From Rhododendron vialii (lineage: Eukaryota > Streptophyta > Magnoliopsida > Ericales > Ericaceae), in assembly GCF_030253575.1 (NCBI RefSeq), contig NC_080569.1, positions 22,070,001-22,134,000 on the forward strand: a stretch of 64,000 nt of DNA. Reading direction: 5' to 3'. This document shows positions 34,600-61,434 of this stretch, piece after piece (position 1 is the first letter of the stretch; each line of letters starts with the position of its first letter). Made by a program: the position numbers and the translations under genes. The notes under the pieces were generated by a model that made no database searches, had not been told where the DNA came from, and saw only the letters and a program-made list of their open reading frames with translations.

Positions 34600-35008
34600 A
34601 ATGCTCTCCTAAGTAAAAAATAATCTGCTGACGTTGTCTGTCCATAGTCATAACGTGGCAAATTGTGATGCAACCCAATTGCCGTCTGAGCCCTCTTTGC
34701 AAGTTGAATTCCTTGAATTTTGTGTTGGAGTACAAAATCATTTACATGGTGCCTTTACTTTTCCTTATTCCAAATCAACCTATTCTTCTTGGAGAAGGAT
34801 TCAGCAAAAAGTAGTGAAATTCGAATTCAGCCCAATAGCTAAATAAAGCAAGACTTGTGAATTCAATTTCCCCAAATGTCAACTCCCCTCTTTCAAAAAA
34901 AAAATGTCAACTGCCCTTAATTCCCAAATGCATGCGCCCTATAAAATCCCATTTTCCTATCACACCACCCCCACCAGTTCCTCCACTCCCTAATAAGGTC
35001 ATACCCCA
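34600..35008 (+). promoter_or_regulatory. promoter of the 8-module STIG1-like gene
   Basis: Shares blocks in order with the promoters at 39130, 47010 and 52000: an ACGT word in tcataacgtggcaaattgtg (34649 on), ggtgcctttacttttcctta, cttgtgaattcaatttcccc, aatgtcaactccc (about 34875) and the TATA box cctataaaatcc (34938-34949). ATG follows 60 bases after the TATA. It is the most diverged of the four. Confidence 0.6.
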
Positions 35009-35857
35009 ATGGAGTCCCCAAAACTATTTTTAGTAATCTTACTAACTTTTGCTAGTTCTTTTGATGCAGCATTGGACCCGAAAAATCCACCGGTCACTTA
35101 CACTTGTGACAACTATCCAGAAATTTGTCAGGTGAAGGGAAGCGTTAAGAATCACTGTTGCGAGAAGGCATGTGTGGACGTCAAGACGGACCTGCTCAAC
35201 TGCGGAGCGTGCGGGCATAAGTGCGGGTACGGTGAGCTCTGTTGCGATGGGGATTGCATTAGTGTCATGACGAATCGAAAAAATTGCGGGATGTGCGGCA
35301 ACAAGTGCAAGGACAAGGAGAGGTGTTGTAATGGGAAATGCGTTAATAAGAGGACGGACCCGTTGAACTGTGGGAAGTGCGGGCATAAGTGCGGGTACGG
35401 CGAGATCTGTTGTGAAGGGCATTGCATTAATGTCATGACGGATAAGAAAAACTGTGGGATGTGTGACAATAAGTGCAAGGACAAGGAGATGTGTTGTAAC
35501 GGGAAATGCGTTAATAAGAAGACGGACCCGTTGAACTGTGGGAAGTGCGGGCATAAGTGCGGGTACGGCGAGATCTGTTGTGAAGGGCATTGCATTAATG
35601 TCATGACGGATAAGGAAAACTGCGGGATGTGCGACAATGAGTGCAAGGACAAGGAGATGTGTTGTAACGGAAAATGCCTTAATAAGAGGACGGACCCGTT
35701 GAACTGCGGGACATGCGGGCATAAGTGCGAGCAAAATGAGAGCTGTTGTAAAAGCAAGTGTGTGAATTTGAATACTAATAAGAAGCACTGTGGTGGGTGC
35801 GATAAGAAGTGCAAAAAAGACGACGTTTGCGAGTTTGGGATGTGCAATTATGCATGA
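35009..35857 (+). CDS. STIG1-like secreted cysteine-rich protein with eight modules
   Basis: 282 residues, one exon. A signal peptide (about 1-20, LFLVILLTFASSFDAAL) precedes the mature protein. After an N-terminal YTCDNYPEIC segment come eight consecutive modules of 28 residues with the pattern CC-x3-C-x9-C-x2-C-x3-C, then a closing C-x5-C and a YA end. Canonical STIG1 proteins (about 140-150 aa, 16 Cys) have two modules; this one has 52 Cys. Modules 1/3/5/7 are alike (TDPLNCGKCGHKCGYGE) and 2/4/6 are alike (INVMTDKKNCGMCDNKC), while module 8 resembles the last module of the neighbours, so the gene grew by duplicating module pairs. STIG1 proteins are apoplastic, bind receptor kinases or lipids and promote pollen-tube growth in tomato; the role of an 8-module form is unknown. 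All cysteines of the pattern are present and the frame is intact, so it is probably functional. Confidence 0.9.
   Translation: MESPKLFLVILLTFASSFDAALDPKNPPVTYTCDNYPEICQVKGSVKNHCCEKACVDVKTDLLNCGACGHKCGYGELCCDGDCISVMTNRKNCGMCGNKCKDKERCCNGKCVNKRTDPLNCGKCGHKCGYGEICCEGHCINVMTDKKNCGMCDNKCKDKEMCCNGKCVNKKTDPLNCGKCGHKCGYGEICCEGHCINVMTDKENCGMCDNECKDKEMCCNGKCLNKRTDPLNCGTCGHKCEQNESCCKSKCVNLNTNKKHCGGCDKKCKKDDVCEFGMCNYA
35185..35760 (+). repeat. coding tandem repeat, exact 168-bp period
   Basis: The word gacggacc recurs at 35185, 35353, 35521 and 35689, always 168 bases (56 codons, two modules) apart. The units at 35353 and 35521 differ at only about seven positions by eye, the first and last units more. 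The unit structure matches module pairs exactly. Confidence 0.92.
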
Positions 35858-36829
35858 TCAATGTTTAATCCAAAGTTGGGGGATGTTACAATAAAAAAAT
35901 TATACATAATAAATGTACTGTTGCATGTTTTGCTTTGTAATTGGAGCCATAGTGTATTTTTTTTTTTTTTGAAGATGGAGCCATAGTGTATTTTTAACTG
36001 AGTAATTATCCCGTTGTCTTGGGGTACTGTCACATGGTGCGCGACACATTTATCCACAGAAATATCACTAAAGAATTTTTCATCATTAACCACGGATGAC
36101 ACCAAAAATTAGAATTCGGGGAGACAAATTAAATTAGTGTAGTAGAACAAAATAGGTCAATTACCTTAGGATCTATCGAATAGGAGAAACGACTCGGGTC
36201 AATTATTTATTTGCATTAGATAGATAATCTTAAATGTAAAAAATTATGACAAAAAGCTTGAAAAAATTCATGGATGACAAAAATAATCCAAAACAGGCAT
36301 AATTGTTGAATTTTTTATTTTATTTTTTATCTTTCATTGACTTTTTCAAGTGTAGTTTTTTTTATATTACTTTTTTGATTTCTTTCGCTAAGTCAGTTTA
36401 TGTAATTAGACAAAAGTTTTATTAAATAGATGTCAACAACAAAATTAGGCCAAAACTTCATTCAACACAAGGATAAAAAAATGAAACCAGTATAAAGAGA
36501 ATAAAAGCATTGAGAGAGCGTCGGAGAGTGCACTATACTATCCTGCTTAGGGGACGAAGCCAGGAATCGAACTCCGAGATGGCCAAGATTAATAATATTG
36601 TAAAGAAATAGAGATCAACTTACAAAGGAAAATAACTTTTATACAGAAAATACTGTGATAATTATCTTATAACTGCAATTGAAACAATTATAAAACATGT
36701 GAATAATTGGAGTGGTGCCGTATTTTTGGAGGAAATACTCATAGGAGAGAGAATTAAAGGTAAAAACTTAGGAGGCAATTTCATTTACTTATATGAAAAG
36801 TTCCCAAATATCTTAGGGGGATTGTAGTA
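35858..36829. other. 3' flank of the 8-module gene, no gene seen
   Basis: Poly(A)-signal words aataaa occur soon after the stop (35890 and 35909). A short direct repeat (ggagccatagtgtatttttt) lies at 35943 and 35976. The rest is AT-rich and unassigned. Confidence 0.5.
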
Positions 36830-37103
36830 TTCCCTCCATCTATTTTTTAGAGTTCAATATTTTATTTTGGCCTGTGACCATTTTGTGTAAAGTTAGTGGA
36901 AAAAAATAGGTATTTTTTTTATTTTGCCTTTAAAAGTAGATTCATTTTTGAAAAGTTAATGGATAAAAATGTAATAATAATGTTTCCATAGAGTGTAGCT
37001 ATGAAAAGTATAGATAAAAGTTGATGTGAAAATTGTAATGATAATGTATTTTTAATAAATTAGAGTTACGAATCTGAACACTTAAAAATAGACAAAAGAA
37101 ATA
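36830..37103. mobile_element. Stowaway-type MITE, degenerate
   Basis: ttccctccatctattttttag at the left; cttaaaaatagacaaaagaa at the right in inverted order, with inner similarity to the copy at 4660 (aagttagtgg, ttgatgtgaaa, ataatgat). Confidence 0.6.
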
Positions 37104-37392
37104 GTTACTACGAAGTTGGAGGTTGTCGAGGCCACCCAACCACCCCCCTGCCTTCCTTCCTTCCTCCCTACTCCTACTGCTAGCTACGTACTCTCTCAAT
37201 CTCACTCACTTGAGAGGCCAAAACCAACCTAAGTTATCAAAAACAACTAAGACAAAAGTACGCATGGCTCGAACGCCCTATTCGGGTCTGGTTAGAATTC
37301 ATGCCTAACTTATCAAACTAGGAAAATCTCTACGGTGTTGCTAATGCTACAGTTTTGACATAAGCAAAAATAGTTTTCTGTCATTATCGTTT

Positions 37393-38115
37393 GCTTGGCG
37401 GAATTCTAGTCCTAAAATAATGGGTTGCCCCAAGCGTAGGGCTGAGACCGATGTAGCACAATACCCGGTAAGACCGGAGTCGAATCCACAGAGACGGTGA
37501 AGTGTGTGCTGTGGAACCTCGGGTTGTAGAATTAAAATTAGCTCTTAGGTAGCCACCCCTTGTCGATTGGTTGATTAACAAACTAACACTAACAGATAAA
37601 TTGCTCGAAAGATTAAAAAGAGAGGCACGGTCATAGAGAATTCGGCGCTTGCTACCCAATCAGAATCCGCTCGCTTTTCAAAGTTCTATAAACGGTTAAA
37701 TTTAGGGAGAATTGGAAATTTCGAAGGATGCGAATCCTAAAGTTGTCGGTCCCGTAATGCTTGACCGAATCCTAGTCCTAAATTAATGGGTTGCCCCAAG
37801 CGTAGGGCTGAGACCGATGTAGCACAATATCCGATAAGACCGGAGTCGAATCCACAGAGACGGTGAAGTGTGTGTTGTGGAACCTCGGGTTATAGTATTA
37901 AAATAGCTCTTAGGTAGCCACCCCTTATCTTTTGGTTGATTGATTAACAAATGCTACTGATAGATTGCTTGAAAGAATAAAAAGAGAGGCGCGGTCGTAG
38001 GGAATCCAGCGCTTACTACCCAATTAGAATCCGCTCGCTTTTCATAGTTCTAAAAAAAATGAATAAATTTAGGGAGAATTGGAAATCCCGAAGAATGCGA
38101 ATCCTAAGGTTGCCG
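37393..38115. repeat. tandem duplication of about 365 bp
   Basis: Copies at 37393-37753 and 37767-38115 align throughout (aatgggttgccccaagcgta, aagaccggagtcgaatccac, cttaggtagccacccctt, cccgtaatg/cccgtacac ends) with roughly ten percent divergence by eye. Confidence 0.85.
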
Positions 38116-39040
38116 GTCCCGTACACAGCGGCGAACAGGTTTTGGTCCTCCGTTCCAGCTCACATGAGCCCGGCAATGCCTCGGATCGTCCAACAGACGT
38201 AGTTTTCACCAACTAAATTTATTTAATTGAATTAATTTGCAGAAAATTGCGAGACGAATCCTAATTGGGTCGCAACGCACCTTTACCCAGCGATTAAACC
38301 TCAGAAAAACTACTCACTCATTATTAAAAAAAAAAAAAAAAAAAAACCTTAACTTGCATCATGTTTGAAATCTAATTAAAACAAGATATTAAAACGAAGT
38401 TAAGATCCACGAGAAACTTTAATTAAGAATGAAACATAAAATAAGTTACCGGAAAATGTGTTCTTGAACAAAACTTGAAAACTTCAAAATTAAAGAGCTC
38501 TGGAAAGAAAGAACGTGAAAAGAAAGTTGCTAATCAAAAGTACGAACCCTAAAAACAAAGTCTGGGGAGGTATTTATATTAATCCCCAAAGTCTAGAATT
38601 AAAAATAATTGAAATACAATTTTTTCCGTAAAACCTTCAGTAGCCCTACAAGGAATAGCTGTAGGGCTACGGGTTTCTCTGTTCCCCAGCTAATGCACTC
38701 TGTAGGGCTACACTTCTGAGTTGTAGCCCTACTGCCTACTTTAGTGAGAATTTTGTGCTTGCATGCACTTTTTGGCACCCGACGCGTCCATCACGTCACC
38801 CGACGCCTCACGCCTCCGTCACGACTTCCCATGGCGATGTCCGACACGGCCTCGCAATCCAAACTTGGCGCAAGAACCGCCTTATTTTCTGCGAAACTAA
38901 CAAAGACACAAAAACAAGACAAAACACGGCATCAAATAGAAAATTGAATAAACCGTGTCTCTAACGCGCTAATATGCCCTACTTAAGCGCTTATATCTAC
39001 GATATCACGCGCCTATCATCGTTTCCTAATCTCTTTTCTT
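37393..39040 (-). mobile_element. partial LTR-retroelement fossil, probably Ty3/gypsy-like
   Basis: The minus strand from about 39022 starts tgataggcgcgtgatatcg and reads into a gcgcgttagagacac and gccaagtttggattgc sequence of the type seen in plant LTRs of the Ty3/gypsy group. At the other end a block of about 365 bases (gggttgccccaagcgtaggg, gaccggagtcgaatccacag) occurs twice in tandem, at 37393-37753 and 37767-38115. Hairpin-like gtagggctac words lie at 38645-38740. It is incomplete and old; no coding part is recognised. Confidence 0.45.
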
Positions 39041-39129
39041 CATTTGTTTAGACGTTATTAATACGAGGCCATCAAACTTTTATTCCGAATCTTGAGCACC
39101 TTTGAGTATAAAGGTCCAGAAAACGTATT

Positions 39130-39455
39130 TTAGTAGTAGAGCAACTTTGAGAAATGAACAAATACAGATGGCCCCTCAATAGTCATGAAGTGGCAAAATG
39201 TGATTGGAGCCCAAACATTACCGCATCAGTCATTGCAGGTTTCCTGGGATTTTGATGTCCGAAAACCATGCACCTAGTGCCTTTACTTTTTCCTTATTCC
39301 AAGAATGATTTGAGTGAACCCCCCAGGTTACAGGAAGACGTGTGTATTCAATTTCCGGAATGTCAACTCCCTCCCGCAAAAGCCCATATAAAACCCAGTT
39401 CTAACTCCTATCAAACCACCCCCACTGCTCCCTAGCTAATTAATTCATTCACCAA
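39130..39455 (+). promoter_or_regulatory. promoter of the first 4-module STIG1-like gene
   Basis: Carries the shared blocks: agcaactttgagaaatgaac, agtcatgaagtggcaaaatg with tgattggagccc, catcagtcattgcaggtttcc, accatgcacctagtg, tttccggaatgtcaactccc and the TATA box catataaaac (39385-39394), 62 bases before the ATG. Nearly identical to the promoter at 51950-52336 for most of its length. Confidence 0.65.
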
Positions 39456-39992
39456 ATGGAGTCCCTAAAAATATTTTCAGTGCTCTTACTAACAATAACT
39501 AGCTCTTTTGTTGCATTGTCGGCCGCAACTGGTTGGTCGCCACCTCCACCTCCTGTGGCGTTGGCTGGTTACACTTGTGACAAGTACCCGGCAATTTGTA
39601 CGGTGGTGGGGAGCGTTAATCCAAACTGCTGCAAGAAGACGTGCGTGAACTTGAACACGGACAACTTGAACTGTGGAATGTGTGGGAAGCAGTGTGCGTC
39701 CGGGAAGCAGTGTTGCAAAGGGAAATGTGTTAACATCCAAAAGAATCGATCCAACTGCGGGGCGTGTGGGTACACTTGCTTAAACACTGATCATTGTTGC
39801 AGCGGGATATGCGTTAATCTGAAGACGAACATTTTGAATTGCGGTGTGTGTGGGAATAAGTGCGGGCTCAATTTGAACTGTTGTGATGGAGAAATTGTGA
39901 ATTTGCTGACCAATAAGAAGCACTGCGGTGGGTGCCAAAACAAGTGCGAAAAAGGCAACGTCTGCTCGAATGGGATGTGCGATTATGCATGA
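39456..39992 (+). CDS. STIG1-like secreted cysteine-rich protein with four modules
   Basis: 178 residues, one exon. Signal peptide about 1-24 (IFSVLLLTITSSFVALSAA), then a short proline-rich linker (WSPPPPPV), YTCDKYPAIC, and four 28-residue modules with the CC-x3-C-x9-C-x2-C-x3-C pattern. It ends CSNGMCDYA. The fourth module reads CCDGEIVN, so its third cysteine is replaced by Ile, leaving 27 Cys, an odd number. The protein is closest to the one at 52337 (most of modules 1-4 identical), so the two are recent duplicates. Expected to be secreted to the apoplast. It lacks the RFLAQ-type N-terminal stretch of canonical STIG1 proteins. Frame intact; probably functional. Confidence 0.9.
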   Translation: MESLKIFSVLLLTITSSFVALSAATGWSPPPPPVALAGYTCDKYPAICTVVGSVNPNCCKKTCVNLNTDNLNCGMCGKQCASGKQCCKGKCVNIQKNRSNCGACGYTCLNTDHCCSGICVNLKTNILNCGVCGNKCGLNLNCCDGEIVNLLTNKKHCGGCQNKCEKGNVCSNGMCDYA

Positions 39993-40334
39993 TCAGTGGT
40001 TGATACGGTGATGGAGAATGTTTAATTTGTATTTGAAAGTTTTTATATAATTTTTGTACTTACTGTTGTCTTGCTATATTGTTGGCGCAGCTATCCATGT
40101 ATATTTGAAAACATGACTTTGTGAAATTACAAAATTGTTAGAATACTTTTAAAAGATTATTATTATATTTACTGGCGATTTCACTTTTTGAAGCCAACAA
40201 CATAGTTTATATAATATCAAAAAGAGTACAAGAGTGATAATTCTTTACAAAACGGGAAACTAATATTCCTCTCTTATCATTACACAAAGCCATGCAAAAA
40301 GTCGGGAGCAGCACGATGTATAAAAAAACGCCTG
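39993..40334. other. 3' flank, no gene seen
   Basis: Resembles the 3' flank of the gene at 52337 (tacggtgatggagaatgt, tatttgaaagtttttatat, cttgctatat), so the duplicated unit includes about 150 bases of trailer. Confidence 0.6.
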
Positions 40335-40570
40335 TAAAGGTTTTTGGTAATTTAACTTTAACTCGGCCTGATTTGATAAGGTTTTTGGTGATTTCACTTT
40401 AACTCGCCCTTACTTGCAAGGGTGATTTCACTTTGACTCGGGCTTACTTCATCATGACTTTTGACAATATCACTTTAACTCGCCTTTATTCGATAAAGGG
40501 ATTTGTGGCGATTTCGCTTTAACTCGGTCTCGCTATGTAAGGGTTGTTGGCCGTTTAACTTTGACTCACG
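40335..40570. repeat. minisatellite, about 40-46 bp unit, six copies
   Basis: The core gatttcactttaactcg with variants recurs near 40352, 40391, 40422, 40467, 40513 and 40553, each followed by a gcc-ttactt-gataagg-like spacer. Degenerate; no coding role seen. Confidence 0.75.
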
Positions 40571-41291
40571 CGACTTTATTACATAGGACTGTAAATGAAC
40601 TGAGCTCTTCGTGAAATATTCGATACTCGAATCGATAAAGGCTCGTTCAATTTTGATTCGTCTACTAAATGAACCGAATCTGAGCCTCAATTAGAGGCTC
40701 GTTACATAAATAAGTCAAACATGAACCTAATAGTATTCGGCTCGATTAGGCTTGTGAATTTAAAGTACATGTGTATCATGAAAATTATATATATAAACTG
40801 GGCCAATCTAGTTTTGACCAGTTCTAGTTTAAAGATCTCCAAACCCAATTAGTTGGTTCGGTCCCAAAAATCACTCCAAATTGGAGCAAACGGGACTGAT
40901 AAAACCCCTAGACAGAGTCAGTCTATTGATCTTTTTGACTGCCACTGCGGCCTAGAGTTTGTGAAGCGTTATGAGGGGCTTATTATAATATAATTATGCT
41001 TTACTTGTCAGACTAGGAAGATCACTTTTCTTCATTTTTTTCAAAATAGTATTCGGATTTTTTGTTTGATACAGCGATTCAACACTTAAAATTGAATGTA
41101 TTAAGTAAGAATTTAAGTTGGCTAAATAATCATATTTCATTGTACTTAATATTTTAAGTGCAGCTTACAAAATAGGCTGGTATTTACTTAATTCTGATTA
41201 AATTTGTTAGTACTTGTGTCTCTCATTTCTAATTTGAGAATAAATTCCCTCCGCTAGAGGAGGAAATGTGGCCTTTTCCTCCAAACTTATA
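40571..41291. other. intergenic, diverged repeat matter, no gene seen
   Basis: The words ggctcgttcaattttgattc, gaggctcgtta and ggctcgattaggcttgtgaa are typical of dispersed plant transposon remnants, but no ends were found. Confidence 0.4.
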
Positions 41292-41529
41292 CTCCCTCCG
41301 TCCCACTTTGTTCCGTCTATTTTCTTTTTTGAACGTCCTTAAAAATTGTCTATATCTCACAATTTATAATATTTTATATATTAAATATGAATCTTGTTTG
41401 ATAGATCTCAATTTATTTTATTAAACAAAGTTTTCGAAATCATAAAAAACATTATAGATTGTGAGATATAGACAATTTTTTGGAATGTTCCAAAAAGGAA
41501 ACAGACGGAACAAAGTGGGACGGAGGGAG
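41292..41529. mobile_element. Stowaway-type MITE, well preserved hairpin
   Basis: Between TA dinucleotides: CTCCCTCCGTCCCACTTTG and ttccgtctat are mirrored by acagacggaacaaagtggga and cggagggag. Inner arms (aaaattgtctatatctcaca) pair too, so nearly all 238 bases form one hairpin. The youngest-looking Stowaway copy here. Confidence 0.92.
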
Positions 41530-41729
41530 TAACTTCCTGCCACGTCATCGACAGTACAAACCCAATGGATTACGTGCTGTGCTTAACTTGGGTTACTTCT
41601 CCAAGCCAAAACTTAATCCCTAAAGGTTTCAAGAATTACCCACATGCCACAACACCCTATTATTGGAAAATTGCTGCTCTGTGAGTTTCGGAGGAAATTT
41701 GTTTCTCGCACGCAAAATTCAGTGTTTCA

Positions 41730-42268
41730 AATTTCAATCTATTTAAATCGAATTTTTTTTTAATTTTTTGTTCATTTTATCCTAAATAATCATAATTAAA
41801 TTTTGACTATAGGGCGCTTGTTGATTTAGCCCTAAGAAAGTCGTAGAACCAAATATTTCTTAGGGCTAACTAATGAAAGCCCTAAAACCAAAAATTAATT
41901 ATGACCATTTAGGTTAAAATGATTAGAGAAATAGGATTTTTATACCGGTTCAAGCGGATTGAAAATTATAGCACATAATTTTTTAACCATATTTTTTAAT
42001 ATATAACTGTAGGTTAAAAAATTAATTGTTCCAAATTTCAATCTGTTTGAATGGGTGGGAAGATTTTATTTTTCTGATCATTTAATTCTTAATAGTCATA
42101 ATTAAATTTTGACTCTAAAACTCTCGTTGATTAGCCCTAAAAAAGTCGTTGAACCAAATATCTCTTAGGGCTATCCAACGATAGCCCTAAAGCCAAAAAC
42201 TAATTCTGACCCTTTAGGATAAAATGATCAGAGAAATAAAATCTTTCCACCCATCCAAACGGATTGAT
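41730..42268. mobile_element. two tandem copies of a foldback MITE
   Basis: Copies at about 41730-41975 and 42034-42268 align (cataattaaattttgactat/c, gttgaaccaaatat, cttagggcta, agccctaaa-ccaaaaa). Each also folds back on itself; in the second, gggtgggaagattttatttt pairs with aaataaaatctttccaccc. Confidence 0.65.
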
Positions 42269-42494
42269 TATTTTTAGTAAATTAGTTATAAAGATTTTAT
42301 TATAATATAAATTCCATGTGTGTATTGTGTGCCACATGCACCATAACTTTTTTCCAAAACAATTTTTTGTTTTTGTACACACACACAACCCCCCCCCCCC
42401 AATTTCTTTTTTTTTTTTTGGCTAACCTTTTTATTTTTTCCAACCATTCAGTTGTCACTCTTATCCTCTCTCATTCCTTGCACCCCATTCCACT

Positions 42495-42660
42495 CCATCT
42501 CTATAAATACCTCTCTCCCTCTCCAAAATTCACAACACACAAAACCACCACAACTGGAAAAAAAATAGTGGGAGTTCGAGCTCCACCCATGGAGGTCGAG
42601 AAAGAAAAAAAAAAGTGAGGTGAATTTCCGGTTCGCATTCACCGAAACCGTTCGTCGTAT
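42495..42660 (+). promoter_or_regulatory. orphan promoter-like segment with start codon
   Basis: A strong plant-type TATA box (ctctataaatacc, 42499-42511) is followed by a leader-like cacaacacacaaaaccaccac and an ATG at 42590 (MEVEKEKK) that runs into aaaagtgagg, a possible splice donor. No downstream exon with a recognisable product was found, so this may be a gene remnant or a small unknown gene. Confidence 0.3.
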
Positions 42661-44105: not shown

Positions 44106-44370
44106 CCACCACCATTACCAACCTATCGCCACCACTGTCACTATCACTATCATTGCCGCCAACACCACCGCCATGCCATCTCCGTCACCACCACCACCAC
44201 TCCACAATCTTTATAATCACTTCCAATACAACTTCCATCTCTCCAGCACCATCACCATCGTTCCAACCAACACTATCTCTCCATCATGTTCCATCGCCTC
44301 ATTCACCTCCACGCTTCTTCATCATGACTACACCACCGCTCACTATTGTTGTCACCTCAACCACTCTCCA
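44106..44370. repeat. (CCA/CAT)n-rich low-complexity stretch
   Basis: Dominated by accaccacc/catcaccacc words; overlapping open frames (44092-44388, 43874-44467) are rich in Thr, His, Ser and Pro for that reason. A similar stretch occurs at 46575-46690. Confidence 0.7.
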
Positions 44371-47322: not shown

Positions 47323-47839
47323 ATGGAGTCCCTAAAACTATTGTCGATAGTCTTACTAACAATAACTAGCTCTTGTGTGGCATCATCGGCTGCGAACGGT
47401 GGGTCGGCAGGTTACACTTGTGACAAGTACCCGGGAGTTTGTACAGTGGCGGGGAGCGTTAAACAGAACTGCTGCAAGAAGATCGATGTGCGTGAACTTG
47501 AACACGGACAACTTGAACTGCGGAGAGTGTGGACATCAATGCAAGCTCGGGAAGCAGTGTTGCAAAGGGCATTGTTTTAACATCCAAAAGAATCGATCCA
47601 ACTGCGGGATGTGTGGGTACAAGTGCTTGAACAATGAGCATTGCTGCAACGGGAAATGCGTCAGTTTGAAGACTGATATTTTGAACTGCGGGTCGTGTGG
47701 GAATAACTGCGGGCTCAATGAGACCTGTTGCAATGGGAAGATTGTGAATTTGCTGACCAATAAGAAGCACTGCGGTGGGTGCCACAACAAGTGCAGAGGA
47801 AACGACGTGTGCGTGCTTGGGATGTGCGATTATGCATGA
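47323..47839 (+). pseudogene. STIG1-like four-module gene with a frameshift
   Basis: The first 53 codons (MESLKLLSIVLLTITSSC ... VKQNCCKK) match the paralogues. At about 47482-47487 the sequence has ATCGAT where the paralogues have AC, a net gain of four bases, after which the frame runs off to a stop at 47578-47580. The +1-shifted frame then continues with perfect family sequence from CVNLNTDNLNC through four modules to CVLGMCDYA and a stop at 47837-47839. The fourth module again lacks its third cysteine (CCNGKIVN). Promoter, leader and the rest of the coding region look preserved, so the lesion is recent, or it is a sequencing or assembly error. Without correction the product would be a truncated secreted peptide of about 85 residues. 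Confidence 0.85.
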
Positions 47840-51860: not shown

Positions 51861-51909
51861 CACTAGCTTTTCTTTATTGTTTCCCACTGTTGATGATGTC
51901 ATCTGCTCC

Positions 51910-52336: not shown

Positions 52337-52870
52337 ATGGAGTCCCTAAAAATATTTTCATTGCTCTTACTAACAATAACTAGCTCGTTTGTTGCATTGT
52401 CGGCCGCAAGCGGTTGGTCGCCACCTCCACCTTCGGTGCCCTCGGCTGGTTACACTTGTGACAAGCACCCGGGAGTTTGTACTGTGGCGACACCAAGCTG
52501 CTGCAAGAAGACGAAGACGTGCGTGAACTTGAACACGGACAACTTGAACTGCGGAAAGTGTGGGAAGCAGTGCGCGTCCGGGAAGCAGTGTTGCAAAGGC
52601 AAATGTGTTAACATCCAAAAGAATCGATCCAACTGCGGGGCGTGTGGGTACACGTGCTTAAACACTGATCATTGTTGCAGCGGGATATGCGTTAATCTGA
52701 AGACGAACATTTTGAATTGCGGGGTGTGTGGGAATAAGTGCGGGCTCAATTTGAACTGTTGTAATGGGAAGATTGTGAATTTGCTGACCAATGAGAAGCA
52801 CTGCGGTGGGTGTCAAAACAAGTGCACTAAAGGCGATCCCTGCTCGAATGGGATGTGCGGGTATGCATGA
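52337..52870 (+). CDS. STIG1-like secreted cysteine-rich protein with four modules
   Basis: 177 residues, one exon. Signal peptide about 1-24, proline-rich linker (WSPPPPSVPS), YTCDKHPGVC, then four modules. Relative to the protein at 39456 it lacks some residues before the first CC (VATPSCCKK against VVGSVNPNCCKK) and has two extra residues in module 1 (KKTKTC), so the first module is 30 rather than 28 residues long. Modules 2 and 3 are identical to the neighbour's. Module 4 again has CCNGKIVN in place of the third Cys, giving 27 Cys. It ends CSNGMCGYA. Expected in the apoplast; probably functional and co-regulated with its twin at 39456. Confidence 0.9.
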   Translation: MESLKIFSLLLLTITSSFVALSAASGWSPPPPSVPSAGYTCDKHPGVCTVATPSCCKKTKTCVNLNTDNLNCGKCGKQCASGKQCCKGKCVNIQKNRSNCGACGYTCLNTDHCCSGICVNLKTNILNCGVCGNKCGLNLNCCNGKIVNLLTNEKHCGGCQNKCTKGDPCSNGMCGYA

Positions 52871-53039
52871 TCAGTCGTTGATACGGTGATGGAGAATGTT
52901 GTAATATTTGTATTTGAAAGTTTTTATATGATTTTTGTACTTACCGTTGTCTTGCTATATATAGTTGGCACAGCCATATATGTATATTTGAAAGCATGAC
53001 TTTGTGAAATTACATTTGAATTACTAATATATATGCGAG

Positions 53040-53500
53040 AATAAAAATTGGCACTCATTGTGTAACCTCATGCAATGTGATGTTAATTATGTTACATGTG
53101 AGTAGCACATCATATGTGAACCTTATGGTGTGCCTAACCATATGCATGTAATGTTATGTCTTTTTTTTTCTTTTTTTTATGGTGGATTTGATGTCTTTTG
53201 TGGTGGATATTATACTACTATTTTATGGTGGAGTATTAGTTTTTCTTATTCAATTTGTGAATTTTGTTTTGTCTTCTTGTGGTTAATATTGTGAATTTTA
53301 ATTGTGAAAATCAACTGAGAATACCGTATCTCCAGATTGCGTGGACGGCACCGTAGAGGTTCTCCACTCTCCAGTGAAAACATTGTTTTACCAAATTGTT
53401 AGCATGCTAGAAAAAGGCATTCAAACTTGCCAATAAAATACACACACAAAAAAAAAAAAAAAAAAAAACTACGTTAATTGGGATAATTAACTTTCTGAAC
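53040..53500. other. intergenic, no gene seen
   Basis: AT-rich with an A-run (53449-53468). Nothing else recognised. Confidence 0.5.
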
Positions 53501-53536
53501 ATAGCATCAACATCTTTATACTTTATTGTGACAATT

Positions 53537-53750
53537 TCAATTAGAAATTGATTTTCGTGCACCATTTTTGTACGCATGCGTTCCGCTTTGTACATGAAGC
53601 TACTAGCATAATTTCACCTTAAAAGAGGAGCGCCTGTGTATAAAAGTGGAGTGTCAAAATCAACATACGCATGCGCTCCACTTTGTAAATGAAATTACTA
53701 GCGTAATTTCACCTTAAAAGAGGAGCACCTAAGAGTGGAGCGTCAAAATC
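53537..53750. mobile_element. MITE related to the 51335 element, duplicated
   Basis: gcatgcgttccgctttgtac, gaagctactagcataatttc and accttaaaagaggagcgcct recur after about 105 bases as gcatgcgctccactttgtaa, gaaattactagcgtaatttc and accttaaaagaggagcacct. The outer attgattttcg and caaaatcaatat are inverted. Same gctccactt words as the 51335 family. Confidence 0.6.
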
Positions 53751-54216
53751 AATATCTATTCAATTTGGTACAATATTTTAGATAACTTCCGTCAGTGTGT
53801 TTTTATTGTAAAACTAGCGCATGCCCGTGCCTGAAGGCACGGATTGAACATTCAGCGCACGCAATTAAATATTGAACCAACTAAAACGCATATAACAAAC
53901 TTGAATGCTTAATTAAAACTTGATCAAATCAAAAAATACTATCCAAAACACCGATGAAACTAAAAAATGATACACATTAACGAAAATCTCTGCCTCGATG
54001 AGACTTCTAAAATGAAAACATTAAAACATGTGAAGACTAAAAATCTTGAAGACTATTGATCCTTTTGTGCTTCAAGGCTTCTCGATCCCAAACCTAGAAA
54101 AAAAATGATATGTCAACAGAAGCCTAGTTAGTATGCCAAGTCATTTGTTTAAGAGAGGATATGTCAACTCAAGTATAATACTCTGCAACTTGTTATACCT
54201 GGTATGATAAAGCAAA

Positions 54217-55440
54217 CTACAGCAGAATTTCAGGGTAAACAATATTGGTAGTGGAATTTGTTTCCTCTTCTGGAAGAAGGACAGTTATACGGTCAAAAGA
54301 CGTGCACCTTGATAATGCCACATATAGTTGCCCATGACTAAACATAGGTGTGCGCAAATCAACCCCAACGAATTTCACTGATTGTCCTTGTGATTTGTTA
54401 ATAGTCATAGCATATGCCAAGCGAACTGGAAATTGACGGCTGGTCATATGAAAAGGAAAATCTGAAAATGATGGTGATAAAGATACTCTTGGTATGAAGG
54501 CCAATTTGCCAAATTTTTCGCCTGTTAAAATCTTAACTTCAATAATACAGGAGCCGCATTTGACAACCATCATCCTTGTGCCATTACAAAGTCCATCCTT
54601 TAGGGCAATATTTCTTAACAATATTATAGGACAACCCACTTTCAACTCTAGCTTAAAAGGCGGTAGCCCAGTAGGATCTAATGAGTTAAGATACTCGTTG
54701 GGATATTTGTTACTGATGCTTCTATCCATTTCGTCATCCTCAGACATTTTATCTGCAGCTAGATAAGTGTATTTATTTTCTGGGAAAATATTTAGTGCAG
54801 TTCCATTTATTGCATTCACGTCATCATTCCGAGCAGAGAGAATCATGCGTTCAGTTAAAAATGTTGGGGTTGATGTATTTGTCACATCCAATTAGTGATA
54901 AACTCTCGACAAGAATTCATTTAGATTTTGACATCTACCTATTGTCGATGGAAGTTGCACCACTTCTCAAGGGTTTGTTCCAACCTAAAAAAATATTGAA
55001 GTATAAACCAATAATCAAACAAAAATGCTAAGAATAACTGATTCATTAAAAAAATAACTGATTCAATAGTAATTAAAATTATTATGCAATATTACCTCCA
55101 TAAAAAAATCTGCAAAAACAGCATTTGCAGGATCTGTTGTATTCAATCGCATGTTCAAATTTAATGTCAAGACACATCATCCCACAGATCAGAACGCCTA
55201 AGTGATGCATTAACAATTTCCTCACGAACTCCTTTGGGTACAACTGACAAAATTTGACGAAAATCCCCACCAAGCACTACGGTGATACCCCCAAATGGTT
55301 TAGGATTGTCACGGATATCACGTAATGTGCGATTGTCGAGCAATACTTTGCTTTAAATTTCATTCTCACTCTCGTCGTGCACGTTGCGCAAGTGTTCCTT
55401 TTGATAGCTCTTTTCCAATTTGTGCCTAAAGTATGTACAA
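54217..55440 (-). pseudogene. Helitron RepHel helicase, C-terminal part
   Basis: The minus-strand frame 54217-54891 encodes the end of a PIF1-like helicase: [57 protein letters not shown] and [10 protein letters not shown] (motifs V and VI) are all present. Further upstream in the minus strand [20 protein letters not shown] (motif II/III region) lies at about 55200-55300, preceded by [15 protein letters not shown]. The two parts are separated by a stretch with stops near 54895 and 54950-54990 and a likely intron (acceptor near 54988). The N-terminal helicase motifs and the Rep domain are absent. Confidence 0.85.
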
Positions 55441-55726
55441 AGAAGAAAACCTTATGAATTAAATCACTACCAAACTCCTAACAAAATTAAATCCCTATCA
55501 AACTCTAGTTGAGTTAGTTGACTACAAATGAATTTTTCAAAAGAAAGACAGTAGATATGCCAAAGAGTGATACCTGTGAATCTTCTTCTCCATTGCCAAT
55601 ATGTGTTGTCTTCCTTTTCTTAGTCATTGCCTTTAAGTTTTTCTAATGCAAGGGTAAGGACCAAACCACAAAAAAATCACAACCGAAGGATCCATACATG
55701 GTTACGGAGATAATACCCAAAAATCT
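55441..55726. other. Helitron interior, unassigned
   Basis: Contains cttcttctccattgccaatatg and tgcctttaagtttttc; no product recognised. Confidence 0.4.
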
Positions 55727-56032
55727 CATTCAAATATTTCAATATTTCAATATTTCAATTGGACAGAAACCTTACTAAATTTCAATTTCAAAAACTTTCT
55801 AGCCGAAGGGTACTCGAATACTTCTTTTTTTTTTGAAGGATTTTCAAGGATATAATTTTGTTTCAATAAAAGAAAGTATGAAACCTCATTCAAACATTTC
55901 AATATTTCAATTGGACAGAAACCTTACTAAATTTCAATTTCAGAAACTTTCTAGCCGAAGGGTACTCGAATACAATTTTTTTTTTTGAAGAATTTTCAAG
56001 GATATAATTTTGTTTTATTAAAAGAAAGTATG
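55727..56032. repeat. tandem duplication, 152-bp period
   Basis: cattcaaatatttcaat, ggacagaaaccttactaaat, ctagccgaagggtactcgaa, ttttcaaggatataattttg and aaagaaagtatgaa occur twice in order (ggacag at 55761 and 55913) with few differences by eye. It lies inside the Helitron. Confidence 0.88.
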
Positions 56033-56048
56033 AATGGCACGTAGGAAG

Positions 56049-56050
<2 letters not shown>

Positions 56051-56132
<82 letters not shown>
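56051..56132. repeat. (GA)41 microsatellite
   Basis: Pure GA run of 82 bases between the 152-bp repeats and the captured gene fragment. Confidence 0.95.
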
Positions 56133-56135
<3 letters not shown>

Positions 56136-56320
56136 AGGAATCTGAGGATAATGTTCCCTTAGGGAGTTTCCAATGCCTACAGCGTCCAATACCCTCCAAG
56201 CGTTGGTCCACAGAGTAAGAGCAAAACCCGTAATTCTTAAGCTCTCTGATGATTCAAGCACTAATTGGGACAAACTGTTTTCTGCAGAACCCGTAATTCT
56301 TAAGCTCTTTGATGAAAAAT
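56133..56320 (-). pseudogene. captured fragment of an FAD-dependent monooxygenase gene (MO/CTF2-like)
   Basis: On the minus strand the codons read LVLESSESLRITGFALTL followed by WTNAWRVLDAVGIGNSLRE, ending QIPR where the GA tract begins. This is the segment after the N-terminal Rossmann motif in plant zeaxanthin-epoxidase-like monooxygenases (MO1/MO2/CTF2). It starts just after a ttctgcag acceptor-like word (near 56281), so the captured piece seems to be one exon edge. Part of it (agcttaagaattacgggtt) is repeated at 56288-56310. It carries no other part of the enzyme and cannot be functional; transcript fusion within the Helitron is possible. Confidence 0.72.
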
Positions 56321-56723
56321 GATCTTATTGTGGTTATAAACTTTGAAGAAGGATAATCTAATTAAGGATCTGTTTTCTCTTTAAGGGGAATCTATCAATA
56401 ATTATCTCGTGAGAACTAATGAATCAATAATTCCTTTAATAAATCTGTAATTGATTTCCTTAAGTAAGATTACTACTTTATAGTTTGACCGGATCATTCC
56501 TTCTGATTGATTAGGATATTAATGGGAATCTATCAATATATAAATGTGTAGCTATTTAAATAAACTGGGAGATTATGATATTTAAACTGATTGAAATTAG
56601 TGACTAATAAAAGAAAGGCATTTAAATTAGTGACTAATTTTCAAGGATTTCTCATCCAACGGTTGAAATTTATGTACCAATCCAACGGTGAAAAATATGT
56701 ACCGCTCTCCCATATTATATAGA

Positions 56724-57398
56724 TATTATATAGATATATATATAGATAGTCACATTCATGATATGTGAGTCGTGACAGATTAGTTTCTTACATGCAACAT
56801 ATGCCACACACTCAAACCGTTAATTTGAAAAACAAGATGCAGAAAAAGGTAATAATTTTTTTGTTTTTCAATTAATGTTTTTAGAGAGAGGATAGCATGA
56901 AGCTTGAGCTATTTGAATACGTGTGGTTTTCCGATAATATTTCTCAAATTTTTAAGTATGGGAAAAATTTATTTCGTTACACGTCCTCTCCTTTGGATTC
57001 AGAAATAGCAAAGTGCACTATGTTTTGTTCAATGGAATCAACGTTAAAATAGAATGGTCATTCTATGTCATACTTATTCCTATGTTTGGTTTACCATAAA
57101 AAAAATGATGGAATGACCATTCTAAATGGAATAACTATTAACCTTAGTAAAAGAATTATCATTCCACTAAAAAAATAAAGAAATTATAAAATTTGTGTTG
57201 CCTATCAATAAAAAAAACAAAGAAATTGCCATTCCATTTCTTTTGTGATGCGAATAACTTTGATTCATCAAAGCCATAGTTTTTGACAATATTTTGGGGG
57301 CTGAATTGCCTCGGGGACGACCCTAAACAAGAAAGATGTAGCTAGATGAATCTCATAAGAAAATGCGGTTGGGTCACTACTTGTGTTTGTACTTGTTG
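56724..57398. other. intergenic, no gene seen
   Basis: Around 57030-57250 the words aatggtcattctatg and ggaatgaccattctaaatgg, and attgccattccatttc, form an imperfect inverted pattern that may be an old hAT-like MITE. No coding region. Confidence 0.4.
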
Positions 57399-57780
57399 TA
57401 GAAATTTTATGTTAAATTCAAAGCCAATTGATAATGAGTGGAAAGATCCCAATATTATATTAAGTGATCACTCATACCATTCTCAAGTAATGTGTGGCTA
57501 TATTTCTTTAACATCTCTCTCATGTGCAGCAACGATTGAAATCTATCACGTTCAGCCCATTTTTGGGTCTTTCCTCGTGCAACAATTTTGCTGATCTGTC
57601 ATTGTGTGGTGTGGATCGTGAAATTTTCAAATATGGGATGGAATGGACCCCACGATGATATCATATGAAAACTTTGTATCCAATTCAAAACCAATTGATA
57701 ATAAATAAAGATGTCTCAATATTATATTAAATGATTACTCATTTTACTCTCAAGTCATGTGTGATTTTATTTACTTAACA
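57399..57780. repeat. two diverged direct copies of an LTR-like segment
   Basis: tttatgttaaattcaaagcc, aattgataatgagtggaaag and ctcaagtaatgtgtgg (57399-57513) recur at 57666-57780. Both resemble the LTR-like segment at 50510-50640. Probably dispersed LTR remnants. Confidence 0.5.
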
Positions 57781-58389
57781 CGTGTATGTCGTATAAGTGG
57801 TTCTGTATAGAATGCTTTATGGTAGGTAGAATCCTGTGAATCCAAGTAATAATACTACTTAAAGAAGGGCCAAACATTCGGAAGAGGGAATGGTTCATTT
57901 CTTCTGCCACAATTTAGCAACTGTTGATACTTAAGAGTGATTTGCTTACTTAATTCTTAAACTTTAGTTTGTCAAATGACTAATACGTGGTGGAAAAAGG
58001 TGCATCAATCAAGCGGTGAATTAGGAAAAATATGCGGGATCCATGTGTTCGAATACATATTCAGACACATTTATGTCTAGAGCTATTTGACATGATTGAT
58101 GCATCGAGTGGGGTGCATGCTCTAAACGGATCGGGGAATTCAGACATGAATTGGACTACCTATCCCGCAGCCATTAGTCCCCGTTTAGCAGAACCAGAGA
58201 ACTGGGCGCATGCGAAACCCACATACATCGGCCGTCTTTGGGCAAAGAGAAACAACTATAGATGAAAAGTCCTCTCCCCTCCTTAATAAGACGTCATCGG
58301 ACCTAGGGTTTCTTCCTATCTTTCATTGATGGGGTTTTGGGTCTAGTCCCCCTATGTGGGGTAGCTGTTAACCATTGGTTTTGTTTTTG
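57781..58389. other. intergenic, no gene seen
   Basis: A frame at 58032-58265 (MRDPCVRIHIQTHLCLELFD) has no family features I recognise. Confidence 0.4.
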
Positions 58390-58557
58390 AGCCAAAGCCG
58401 GCTCAGACTTTTGGGAGCTTAAAACGAAAATTAAAAATATGGCCTCTTTTGTTGGACTATAATAAGGGATAACAAAGTAGGAGGGGCCCTTACAATTCAT
58501 AATTTTTTGGAGGCCCAAAGCAACCGCAACACTTGCTTTAGCTCAAAGCCGGTTCTG
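58390..58557. mobile_element. small MITE with AGCCGG-type ends
   Basis: agccaaagccggctcagact at the left and gctcaaagccggttctg at the right; body shared with 50855-51022. Confidence 0.55.
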
Positions 58558-58676
58558 TTTTGAGCAGCATGTTATCATTTTCTATTAGCAACGGAGCTAC
58601 TATTTGAAATTTGGGAAATTAAATTGGAGTCACTGATAGCTTGAAAGTGACTGAAATGTTTCAAGATTCATTTTTG

Positions 58677-59213
58677 TAGGGGTGAAATACAAATCGACAA
58701 AATTCAACCAATCGAAAAAATTGGTTTGGTTTTGTTTTTCCAAGCTATTGGTCTAGCTTGGTTTTGGTTTTGGTATAAGTAAATTAGAAAACCCGAAATC
58801 AAACCAAAATATTAAGACTAATTGATAACCCTAGTAATTCACAACCCAGTAAACTTATACTCCACCCACTTTCCATAAGCCTGTTTTATATTCTTCAAAT
58901 TAGGTTTAATATGTTCTCGGGATATCTAGATATTAGTCTCATGAGTTTTTTCATGTAATTTTATGTTTTCTAATTTTGTTGGGCCTCTTTTAATTTTTAT
59001 TTTGGTTTAGTTAAGTATGTGGGCTGAATCGTTTCTCAATTGAGTTATTTTATCTGGTCATGTTCGTTATTGAACGCGCGAGCCGAAAACACCAAACCGG
59101 ATCAAAATCGAAGTTGTTTGGGCCAGTTTCAGTTTAGAAATCTCAAAACCGAATGATTTGGTTTAGTGATAAAATTAGTAAAAATCCCGACTAAATTGAA
59201 CCGATTACACCCT
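58677..59213. mobile_element. possible hAT-type MITE
   Basis: Starts taggggtgaaatacaaatcg and ends ccgattacacccttaa, giving short inverted ends (GGGTG/CACCC), with an interior rich in ggtttggttttg words. Such ends are common in plant hAT remnants. Target duplication not resolved. Confidence 0.4.
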
Positions 59214-60450
59214 TAAGTTTTTTTATTAATCGGATTGAAATTTTGTTTTGAATTGTCAAAGTCACAAGTAGATGGTTGTAGGGGTGAATATTGTGAAAAC
59301 AATCAGACAGAGTACTTGGTTTTTCAGGCATCGAATGTGCATGTACTGGAAATTAGGCAAACAAACCTAACCATTTACGGTGCCAACCACGTGCGTATTG
59401 ACCTAAGAAAAAGGTTGTCATATGGCCACAGATCACTGCATCACAGTGCTTTTGTAACCGATTATTCCAAGTTGGAAAACCCGTTGCCCTTTCAAGATTG
59501 ACTTCCAAGGCTTTTGATCTTGTCAAGCAGAGAAGAGTCCAGCGAATTAACCACAAGGGGTAGCCAAAGTGATAAAAGGGAGAATCGTAAATTCAGATAT
59601 TCCGAGTTCAAAAATTGACCATTGCTTGGGATTAGGGTGCAAGAGAAAAATCTTTTGTGAATCTCCTAGTCCCTGCATTAATGATTTTGCTTTTGTCCAA
59701 ACCACGGCAAGAAATAGTTGAGGTATACGTAAGCTGACCTGAACACCCTTAATTGTCGGGAAAAAAAAAATGGTCCAGCATGCCCATTTTGACACAACAA
59801 ATTTTCAATATCGCCTCAAGTTGTGTGTCACATTTTACCGACATCTATAAGGTACTCTGTGACTAATTTAATTGTTCGTTCCTCTAAAAAATTCAAGTTC
59901 GATTCTCCTTTAAAGCAAATATTGGACCACCCTCACCCCAATTAGCCCGAGCACGGGTGCACGTCTCATGTTTTATTGGTCAAAATGTTATAACGTAAAC
60001 ATTTGCAAATCTAAATTTAGCAACACAACAGCAAACAAAAAAATAATTAGGAAAACCGTTTTTTTTTTTAAATGTTAAAACAATTCCAGGAGCCTTGAAC
60101 TATCCACGCTTCATGGGGTTTGTACAGTACAAAACCCTAAAGGCCACTGGCCAAAGCAGTGGACGATCGGGGTGAGAACCGGTCGTCCTGTGGTAGTGGG
60201 CTGTTGTCCAACAGGCTAGTGATCTACCGGATAACTATCGGTTCGGTTCCAACTTTCAACGGGTGTGGGCTTCGTCGCAATGGGTTTTTTGTGTATGGTT
60301 TCTTGTCAAATTTGGGGTTTAAGTCTCGGATGGGCATATGATTACTTTTAGCGTTGTAGATCATTTGGGTCTCGGGTTAGGGGTTTGATATCATTCCTTG
60401 TTCCTATTAATTTTTGTATCATTTTCAGAGATTAAAGATGCCTTTCAAAA
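59214..60450. other. intergenic, no gene seen
   Basis: Frames at 59235-59501 and 60159-60341 lack recognisable domains. A box B-like aagttcgattctcc at 59895 could belong to an old SINE, without a matching box A. Confidence 0.4.
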
Positions 60451-60596
60451 AAGGGAAAATGACAGTCAATGACGTGTTTTGATAATGAATACCCGCCAAG
60501 GATATGCTGAGAATATTTGTTAATATTAAAAATGTCATAGACGGATATTAATTATCAAAACACGTTCTGAGTTGTCATTTTCCCTTAAAAAAAATT
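60451..60596. mobile_element. hairpin MITE
   Basis: aagggaaaatgacagtcaat with gacgtgttttgataatgaat pairs with attatcaaaacacgttctga and gttgtcattttccctt. Arms about 50 bases, whole element about 146 bases. Confidence 0.85.
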
Positions 60597-60719
60597 CGGC
60601 TCGATTCGGGTGAGATTGCCGACCCTACTTATTGACACACAGACAATAGTACGTTCCTTAATACGTAGTACATAAAAAGGAGAACTAATATAAATGGGCC
60701 ATAAGTCATGCTTTCATTG

Positions 60720-60993
60720 TAATTTGTGGTTCTTTTTTTCTCTCCTCTCTAGCTCCTTCCCCTATTTCCATACTCAGTTGGGATATTAATTTGGAGCCTA
60801 ACTTCTGCTTACTTGAATTGCAAGCCGCCCTTGACAAGGACCACCATTAAGCAACTTAATTCCTCTATAAATAACCTTCCATAGTCCCTTGATCATAGGC
60901 ATCAATAACAATTCTCAAATCTCTCTTCCTCTCCCCTCTCCCCTCTCCCTCTCCCTCGCCCTCTCCCTCTCAACAAATACATTACCATATATA
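60720..60993 (+). promoter_or_regulatory. promoter and leader of the canonical STIG1 gene
   Basis: TATA box ctataaataa (60864-60873), then a CT-rich leader (ctctcccctctcccctctcc) up to the ATG at 60994. An upstream in-frame ATG at 60889 would add a Ser/Leu-rich stretch made by the CT tract and is not preferred. None of the blocks shared by the other four promoters is seen. Confidence 0.6.
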
Positions 60994-61434
60994 ATGGTGT
61001 CCTCACTAAAAGTTTGTTTCATCTTTCTAGCAGTGATAATGGCCACAGCCATTACTACCACCGCACTCACATCCGAAGAAGAAAATGTTTCTAATCCTTA
61101 CACCGTACAAAACAAAGAATCATCGTTTCTCCAGAGGACTAATCGTTTCCTTGCCCAAAGTCGACCCCCTGCTGATAAAATGACGTGCGACAGGTACCCT
61201 AGGGTTTGTAAGACCAAGGGGAGTCCTGGCCCGGACTGCTGCAAGAAGCAATGCGTGAATGTGATGACAGATTCACTTAACTGCGGAATGTGCGGGAAGA
61301 AGTGCGACTACTCCAAGATGTGCTGCCAAGGAGAGTGTGTGAACCCATCTGCCGACGAGAAGAATTGTGGCCGTTGTAACAATAAGTGCGGGAATGGAAG
61401 CTCGTGTGTTTATGGGTTGTGCAGCTACGCTTAG
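60994..61434 (+). CDS. STIG1: STIG1 (stigma-specific protein) family member, canonical two-module form
   Basis: 146 residues, one exon. The start at 60994 gives a signal peptide (MVSSLKVCFIFLAVIMATAI). A variable propeptide-like region follows and contains RTNRFLAQ, the stretch found before the cysteine domain in STIG1/GRI-type proteins. The cysteine domain has TCDRYPRVC, two modules (CCKKQCVNVMTDSLNCG and CCQGECVNPSADEKNCG) and CVYGLCSYA, in all 16 Cys, as in tobacco and tomato STIG1. The length agrees with the family (about 140-150). Secreted; family members act in stigma exudate secretion, pollen-tube growth or, for GRIM REAPER, ROS-induced cell death. It is about 8 kb from the nearest paralogue and has a different promoter, so it probably represents the ancestral form. 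Confidence 0.93.
   Translation: MVSSLKVCFIFLAVIMATAITTTALTSEEENVSNPYTVQNKESSFLQRTNRFLAQSRPPADKMTCDRYPRVCKTKGSPGPDCCKKQCVNVMTDSLNCGMCGKKCDYSKMCCQGECVNPSADEKNCGRCNNKCGNGSSCVYGLCSYA

Follow-up and report, generated by a model that had tools for sequence, protein, structure and literature searches.

The 64,000-nt window analysed here (Rhododendron vialii, NC_080569.1) contains a tandem array of STIG1 genes whose products are rather probably apoplastic, secreted, disulfide-rich chains of hairpins with a part in surface signalling, and in which a gene with four modules would have grown to six and then to eight by unequal crossing-over. Five genes matching PF04885 (Stig1) lie on one strand within 26.4 kb at 35009-61434, with Pfam scores of 103.7-225.6 bits against a cut-off of 24.1. 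The sequence-only reading had described a same-strand array of five STIG1 genes in about 27 kb, with members of 2, 4, 4, 4 and 8 modules. Both the array and the counts were borne out, the order along the window being 8, 4, 4, 4, 2 (g8, g4a, g4b, g4c, g2). Judged by its sequence, the array is a real variant of the known STIG1 family, and the gain of modules by some members through internal duplication is supported. The features are as follows.

21060..21458, minus strand: nearby exon, assigned by a PDB sequence match (E 1e-11) to a pyridoxal phosphate homeostasis protein (YggS type); without a Pfam match at 0.001
34650..35008, plus strand: g8 upstream region, with TATAAA after CCC or CCCA, partly common to the corresponding regions of g4a, g4b and g4c
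35009..35857, plus strand: g8, STIG1-family gene, 282 aa, 8 modules, 52 Cys, signal-peptide-like hydrophobic N-terminus (by eye)
35156..35827, plus strand: the eight g8 modules, 84 bp each
35207..35710, plus strand: three copies of the 168-bp unit of g8, ends approximate (mosaic analysis, dS, Tandem Repeats Finder)
39456..39992, plus strand: g4a, intact 4-module STIG1-family gene, 178 aa, 27 Cys, Pro-rich linker
47323..47839, plus strand: g4b, 4-module STIG1-family gene, module 1 frameshifted (about 47479-47488)
52337..52870, plus strand: g4c, intact 4-module gene, 177 aa, 27 Cys, module 1 with a 2-residue insertion
60994..61434, plus strand: g2, canonical STIG1 gene, 146 aa, 2 modules, domain with 16 Cys

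Proteins of the STIG1 family are secreted and carry an N-terminal signal peptide, and hydrophobic N-termini are visible by eye in the array proteins. The upstream blocks (TATAAA after CCC or CCCA, with flanks) are common to all four multi-module genes; the g2 upstream region aligns poorly to them.

In six-frame translation, the window has 17 matches to the strict pattern CC-x3-C-x9-C-x2-C-x3-C, against none in 200 mononucleotide shuffles of it. It had been claimed that every module fits this pattern, but 17 of the 22 modules in the five genes fit it exactly. The exceptions are the three terminal g4 modules, the first module of g4c with the already noted 2-residue insertion (52499-52588), and the broken first module of g4b, which is counted as a module by register. 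In g4a, g4b and g4c the last module reads CC-x3-Ile, so that the third Cys is gone, and the same Ile is found in a 4-module relict 0.8 Mb away.

The C-terminal domain of STIG1 has 16 conserved cysteines. The proposed breakdown of this number into two modules and two flanking pairs agrees with the g2 domain and its 16 Cys. The multi-module genes are built from this Cys pattern with the same flanking pairs, and the totals of the intact ones (27 in g4a, 27 in g4c, 52 in g8) exceed the canonical 16. All 48 module cysteines of g8 are retained. The Cys number of g4a and g4c is odd. An improbable reading is that the multi-module genes make up a class of rod-like secreted plant proteins, tuned in length by two-module steps, in which one unpaired Cys would link two 4-module chains into a covalent dimer, an eight-module assembly reached by pairing and not, as in g8, by duplication.

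For the path to eight modules, the repeat structure of g8 is most informative. Tandem Repeats Finder detects a period of 168 bp (3.1 copies, 92% match, 35209-35729). This unit comprises the end of an odd module, an even module and the start of the next odd module, and its joints fall inside odd modules. Modules 3 and 5 resemble module 7 early and module 1 late; among the informative sites, 26 of 29 agree with this in module 3 (permutation p 0.0003) and 26 of 30 in module 5 (p 0.00075). As both are near-copies (98% identity; modules 4 and 6, 95%), the mosaic signal counts as one event and not two. The dS values among the units are 0.38 (U1-U2), 0.38 (U1-U3) and 0.17 (U2-U3), which gives the order 4, 6, 8 by unequal crossing-over. 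We propose that a short-linker gene of four modules originated within the STIG1 array, and that one 4-module copy would then have reached six and eight modules in two rounds of unequal crossing-over. The piece exchanged in each round would be the 168-bp unit of two modules, joined within odd modules.

The sequence-only reading had instead suggested that the modules doubled twice as whole sets, from two to four and from four to eight. The even series 2, 4, 8 fits this suggestion, and Tandem Repeats Finder also reports a 336-bp period in g8 (1.9 copies), although with a lower match (80%) than the 168-bp period with its mosaic joints. Doubling of a 4-module set predicts the pairs 1-5, 2-6, 3-7 and 4-8, whereas the near-identical pairs are 3-5 and 4-6, and module 8 is closest to the fourth module of the g4 genes (74-77%) rather than to module 4 of g8 (64%). 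The proposed tree of single modules has mostly weak branches. In AU tests on it, grouping of modules 8 and 4 was rejected (p 0.01), pairing of 5 and 1 was not (p 0.14), and the set 2,4,6 is absent from the tree, yet not rejected (p 0.39). For the 4-module form, derivation as (1,2)(1,2) is neither established nor rejected (p 0.50). The second doubling is contradicted by the three copies of a 168-bp unit and the rejected grouping of 8 with 4. Taken as a whole, twofold set doubling is very improbable.

The 4-module form itself does not seem to be young, as suggested by the dS of 0.73-0.94 between the 8-module and the 4-module genes, and may therefore occur in related plants. Eight STIG1 loci were found outside the window in the same genome, and no intact multi-module gene is among them. 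Five have undamaged open frames with 2 modules each, one is the 4-module relict mentioned above, a 2-module copy on C3 is decayed, and another locus, on C2, contains stops.

One of the four multi-module genes, g4b, is broken. Its frame from the ATG at 47323 departs, between CCKK and CVNL, from that of the modules, through an indel of +4 relative to g4a or -2 relative to g4c, and runs into a stop after 85 residues. As assembled, g4b looks like a pseudogene, or else the assembly is at fault here. An assembly artefact would be conceivable for this small indel, and for g8 too, because short reads collapse sequence such as 168-bp units of which two copies are 95-98% identical. The units, however, carry distinct substitutions, their dS of up to 0.38 is too divergent for a simple copy error, and the joints form an orderly pattern. 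We therefore give an artefact in g8 or g4b scarcely any credence.

Coding constraint is seen with NG86. The dN/dS of g4a-g4c is 0.34 (bootstrap 0.20-0.61), and comparison of g8 modules 5-8 with g4a, g4c and g4b gave 0.50, 0.48 and 0.30 with upper limits of 0.87, 0.85 and 0.54; the intervals for U2-U3, g4a-g4b and g4c-g4b include 1. Over whole genes, NG86 gave no sign of positive selection. Biopython YN00 returned ratios above 1 for g4c-g4b (1.83) and g8-g4a (1.54) and below 1 in three other pairs (0.65, 0.65, 0.82), with no usable estimate in 7 of 13 comparisons, and the constraint reading relies on NG86.

Module number could alternatively be a neutral by-product of in-frame repeat slippage in copies that are born and die with unchanged function. 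The frameshift in g4b, the relict and the damaged copies on C3 and C2 are in line with such turnover, and every slip comprises whole in-frame modules, which tandem repeats make easy. The complete set of module cysteines in g8 argues against it, as do NG86 ratios below 1 between g8 and all three g4 genes and between g4a and g4c. Since constraint on the modules does not imply constraint on their number, neutrality persists as a rival, possible if on balance unlikely.

AlphaFold predicts n+1 hairpins for n modules, at moderate to low confidence. The g8 model shows nine hairpins about 28 residues apart, with mean pLDDT of 74-91 in 10-residue blocks from residue 61 on and a pTM of 0.47; its other four models have mean pLDDT of 50-66. 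For g2 the mean pLDDT is 59.5, and the g8 and g2 models each rest on four-sequence alignments. The products would thus be beta-hairpin chains with one hairpin per module and a C-terminal cap.

In GRI-type proteins the active peptide comes from the N-terminal variable region. Signal-like part included, 31 and 39 residues precede the domain in g8 and the intact g4 genes, compared with 63 in g2; these long members lack the long variable stretch that separates the signal from the Cys-rich domain in the GRI type. Activity would be carried by the modules themselves rather than by an N-terminal peptide, and module number would set protein length and the number of contact sites. The sequence-only reading had suggested that such multivalent proteins could bridge several receptor or lipid partners. 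Judged by the family, the most likely role of the array is pistil or apoplastic cell-surface signalling. Passages of PMC7059789 describe STIG1 as a ligand of the pollen receptor kinase LePRK2 and of PI(3)P that affects pollen tube growth. The same passages present Arabidopsis GRI, a STIG1 relative, as promoting superoxide and cell death, and PMC7297788 places STIG1 tandem duplicates in a Populus Melampsora leaf-rust QTL, three table rows giving Ka/Ks of 1.31, 1.00 and 1.00. The long members might accordingly be apoplast defence proteins and not pollination factors, which is rather unlikely given the whole-gene NG86 result, the two YN00 ratios above 1 notwithstanding.

Within a single locus, one plant ligand family comes in natural lengths of 2, 4 and 8 modules, and the DNA records how 4 became 8. 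Should the long members prove to be expressed, STIG1 activity becomes directly testable against module number and, owing to their much shorter N-terminal segment, so does the active part of STIG1. If 4-module genes occur across related plants, the class has merely been overlooked.

Bacterial multi-copy Stig1-module proteins belong to the same Pfam family (above cut-off in 5 of 5 tested) and share with the array an NCG-x-C core in tandem copies. Their carriers are mostly Myxococcales-type or Deltaproteobacteria by record title; examples are L018 with 44 pattern matches, L024 with 29, L020 with an AhpC/TSA domain, and a Sandaracinus plasmid protein with RCC1 repeats. Of 42 bacterial loci, 6 contain the strict plant pattern, with 11 occurrences in total, and best-segment identity is 26-45%. 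Several-copy bacterial frames are mostly spaced by 41-47 residues with a linker, whereas the array is gapless at 28. A bacterial-type repeat with a period of about 43 residues and linkers does not describe g8, whose period is exactly 28 residues. One bacterial frame, L047, has two strict modules 28 residues apart, like canonical plant STIG1. Canonical STIG1 and STIG1-like proteins (PF04885; tomato LeSTIG1, petunia and tobacco STIG1, Arabidopsis GRI) share the Pfam domain, the 28-residue modules and the hydrophobic N-terminus with the array, whose genes have the flanking Cys pairs CD-x-x-P-x-x-C and C-x4-C and single open frames. The undamaged canonical genes of this genome have 2 modules, the long array genes 4 or 8, and in these long genes the domain is preceded by 31-39 residues altogether, compared with 63 in canonical g2. 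In their tandem arrangement the genes resemble the STIG1 genes of Populus chromosome 4, which form local arrays according to PMC7297788.

The genome that was searched comprises 532.6 Mb in 13 sequences, and the window covers 64 kb of one of them (C13). Five STIG1-family genes had been proposed on one strand. All five were found on the forward strand and score far over the cut-off of the PF04885 profile, g4b being tested from 47375 in the second frame. The number in each gene name is the count of modules.

STIG1-family (PF04885) genes of the array
35009-35857, forward strand: g8
39456-39992, forward strand: g4a
47323-47839, forward strand: g4b
52337-52870, forward strand: g4c
60994-61434, forward strand: g2

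A module is a six-cysteine unit of 28 residues. The window contains 17 matches to the strict pattern CC-x3-C-x9-C-x2-C-x3-C, whereas each of 200 shuffles contains none. By register 22 modules are present (eight in g8, four each in g4a, g4b and g4c, two in g2), so that the claim of the sequence-only reading that every module fits the pattern stands for 17 and fails for five. Three of these are the last modules of the 4-module genes, where Ile replaces the third Cys. In g4c, module 1 carries a 2-residue insertion; in g4b, an indel disrupts module 1. Since this indel breaks the frame, g4b is an apparent pseudogene in this assembly. The Cys totals are 52 in g8 and 27 each in g4a and g4c; g2 has 16 in the domain and one in the N-terminus. 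The upstream regions of g8, g4a, g4b and g4c have in common TATAAA after CCC or CCCA together with flanking blocks, and that of g2 aligns poorly with them.

Other features of the window
5.0-7.3 kb: PPR protein of 754 residues (PPR_2, 254.9 bits), with an E-motif match under the cut-off
21060-21458: exon of a YggS-type gene
28575-28934: a 120-bp sequence in three tandem, near-identical copies (98% matches)
32129-32835: AT-rich tandem repeats, 6.3 copies with a period of 111 bp
54217-54891, reverse strand: open frame encoding a Pif1 helicase 2B domain, inside the array

The PPR protein and the plant-type STIG1 genes mark the genome as that of a plant. YggS and STIG1 genes presumably adjoin in Arabidopsis also, which would mean a conserved neighbourhood. 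The Pif1 frame we take to be probably a piece of a Helitron-type transposon.

Genome-wide, at least 21 PF04885 matches were found, comprising the five array genes and eight other loci, five of which are open 2-module genes.

STIG1 loci outside the array
C6:9.52 Mb (L009:1140-1958): open 2-module gene, PF04885
C3:0.664 Mb: open 2-module gene, PF04885
C6:38.30 Mb: open 2-module gene, PF04885
C4:41.75 Mb: open 2-module gene, PF04885
C4:1.90 Mb: open 2-module gene, PF04885
C3:0.670 Mb: decayed 2-module copy
C2:21.46 Mb: locus with two stops
C13:22.94 Mb (L014:2815-3087): relict of the 4-module type, 90 residues, 0.8 Mb from the array

Over ~370 bp the relict matches the regions of g4a and g4c at 86-87% identity, and two of its CC pairs are now YC and WC. 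Searching the genome with the g8 protein revealed no additional STIG1 locus. Since the outside loci are 2-module, damaged or relict, the multi-module genes are confined to the array within these searches. In the gene at C6:9.52 Mb the canonical 2-module domain is followed by a tail of ~110 residues with PPKPP/PFPP repeats, an extensin-like Pro-rich arm.

The first modules of the long genes resemble canonical first modules and the last modules of the 4-module genes resemble canonical last modules; the inner two modules and module 8 of g8 are intermediate between both. For the step from two to four modules, the module tree rejects neither a (1,2)(1,2) origin (p 0.50) nor a single source for the inner modules (p 0.39).

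A second doubling, from four to eight modules, had also been proposed, but the module pairs observed in g8 differ from those it predicts. Modules 3 and 5 are 98% identical and modules 4 and 6 95%, followed by module 7 versus 3 and 5 (85%) and module 2 versus 4 and 6 (83%). Module 8 has its closest counterparts in module 4 of the 4-module genes (74-77%). A tree with modules 8 and 4 together is rejected (AU p 0.01), whereas one with 5 and 1 together is not (p 0.14). Modules 3 and 5 are mosaics, resembling module 7 as far as roughly base 53 of 84, then module 1 from about base 70. This holds at 26 of 29 sites in module 3 and at 26 of 30 in module 5 (3 and 4 exceptions; p 0.0003 and 0.00075), with the parents (modules 1 and 7) picked after the identities were seen. 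Since both modules are near-copies, the mosaic represents one event. The simplest account would be that unequal crossing-over in a 4-module gene joined a point within module 1 to a point within module 3. Its product would be a 168-bp unit made up of the end of module 1, module 2 and the start of module 3, which would subsequently have been repeated. Tandem Repeats Finder, run after the mosaic test, reports 35209-35729 with period 168, 3.1 copies and 92% matches, and further periods of 84 (67%) and 336 (80%). The dS values among the three units (U1, U2 and U3) are 0.38, 0.38 and 0.17, which gives the order 4 to 6, then 6 to 8; the dates are rough because each comparison has just 27-29 synonymous sites.

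Between genes, dS is 0.17 for g4a-g4c, 0.31 and 0.27 for g4b versus g4a and g4c, and 0.73-0.94 for g8 versus the 4-module genes. PMC7572368 assigns the Rhododendron Ks peak of ~0.65 to a duplication ~78 million years ago. If this peak can be applied as a yardstick to the plant at hand, the age of the 4-module form would roughly match that duplication, with the proviso that estimators differ, and kiwifruit and blueberry relatives should then carry it as well. NG86 puts dN/dS at 0.34 (0.20-0.61) between g4a and g4c, and at 0.30-0.50 (upper limits 0.54-0.87) when g8 modules 5-8 are compared with the three 4-module genes; the intervals for g4a-g4b, g4c-g4b and U2-U3 extend over 1. Biopython YN00 yields 1.83 for g4c-g4b, 1.54 for g8-g4a and 0.65, 0.65 and 0.82 for three other pairs, with no estimate for 7 of the 13 comparisons, among them all six within g8. 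A neutral length change of the long genes is one possible reading.

Roles in pollination or in defence are possible as well. According to PMC7059789, the pistil protein STIG1 promotes pollen tube growth via LePRK2 and PI(3)P, and its Arabidopsis relative GRI promotes superoxide and cell death. With just 31-39 residues ahead of the domain in the long genes versus 63 in g2, the modules should be the acting part of the long proteins, if these act. No description of 4- or 8-module STIG1 proteins was found among the literature matches listed, with subscription papers and plant protein databases outside the scope, which is weak evidence of novelty.

The best g8 model (mean pLDDT 76.2, pTM 0.47, four-sequence alignment; other four models 50-66) has nine hairpins: each of the eight modules contributes one, located at its CC, and the ninth lies at the C-terminal C-x4-C cap. 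The g2 model has three, though it is poor (59.5). From the strand limits we infer that, within a module, Cys1 and Cys3 are opposed across the hairpin, as the two cap cysteines would be. The last module of the C13:22.94 Mb relict, lacking both Cys1 and Cys3, agrees with such pairing, whereas its module 3, lacking Cys1 alone, disagrees. In the 4-module genes, whose last module lacks Cys3 only, Cys1 would stay free. A search of solved structures gave no match.

Of 119 pattern stretches in the bacterial and archaeal collection, 41 encode relatives, mostly from records titled as Myxococcales-type or Deltaproteobacteria; Eremiobacterota, Magasanikbacteria and Woesearchaeota appear in one record title each. 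Counted with a loose pattern, the copies in the best frames of these 41 loci and of one plasmid locus range from 0 to 44, spaced mostly 41-47 residues apart where there are several. All four long frames tested exceed the PF04885 cut-off, as does a Sandaracinus plasmid protein with RCC1 repeats. In a bacterial frame from a record titled Candidatus Eremiobacterota (L020:2290-3786) an AhpC/TSA-type redox domain is joined to six Stig1-like copies, as counted with the loose pattern. Strict modules number 11, spread over 6 of 42 loci, and a frame of a Myxococcales MAG (L047:3127-3294) has two of them at a distance of exactly 28 residues, as in the canonical pair of plants. Thus module repetition is not new and the gapless pair is not peculiar to plants. 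What differs is the gapless 4- and 8-module series.
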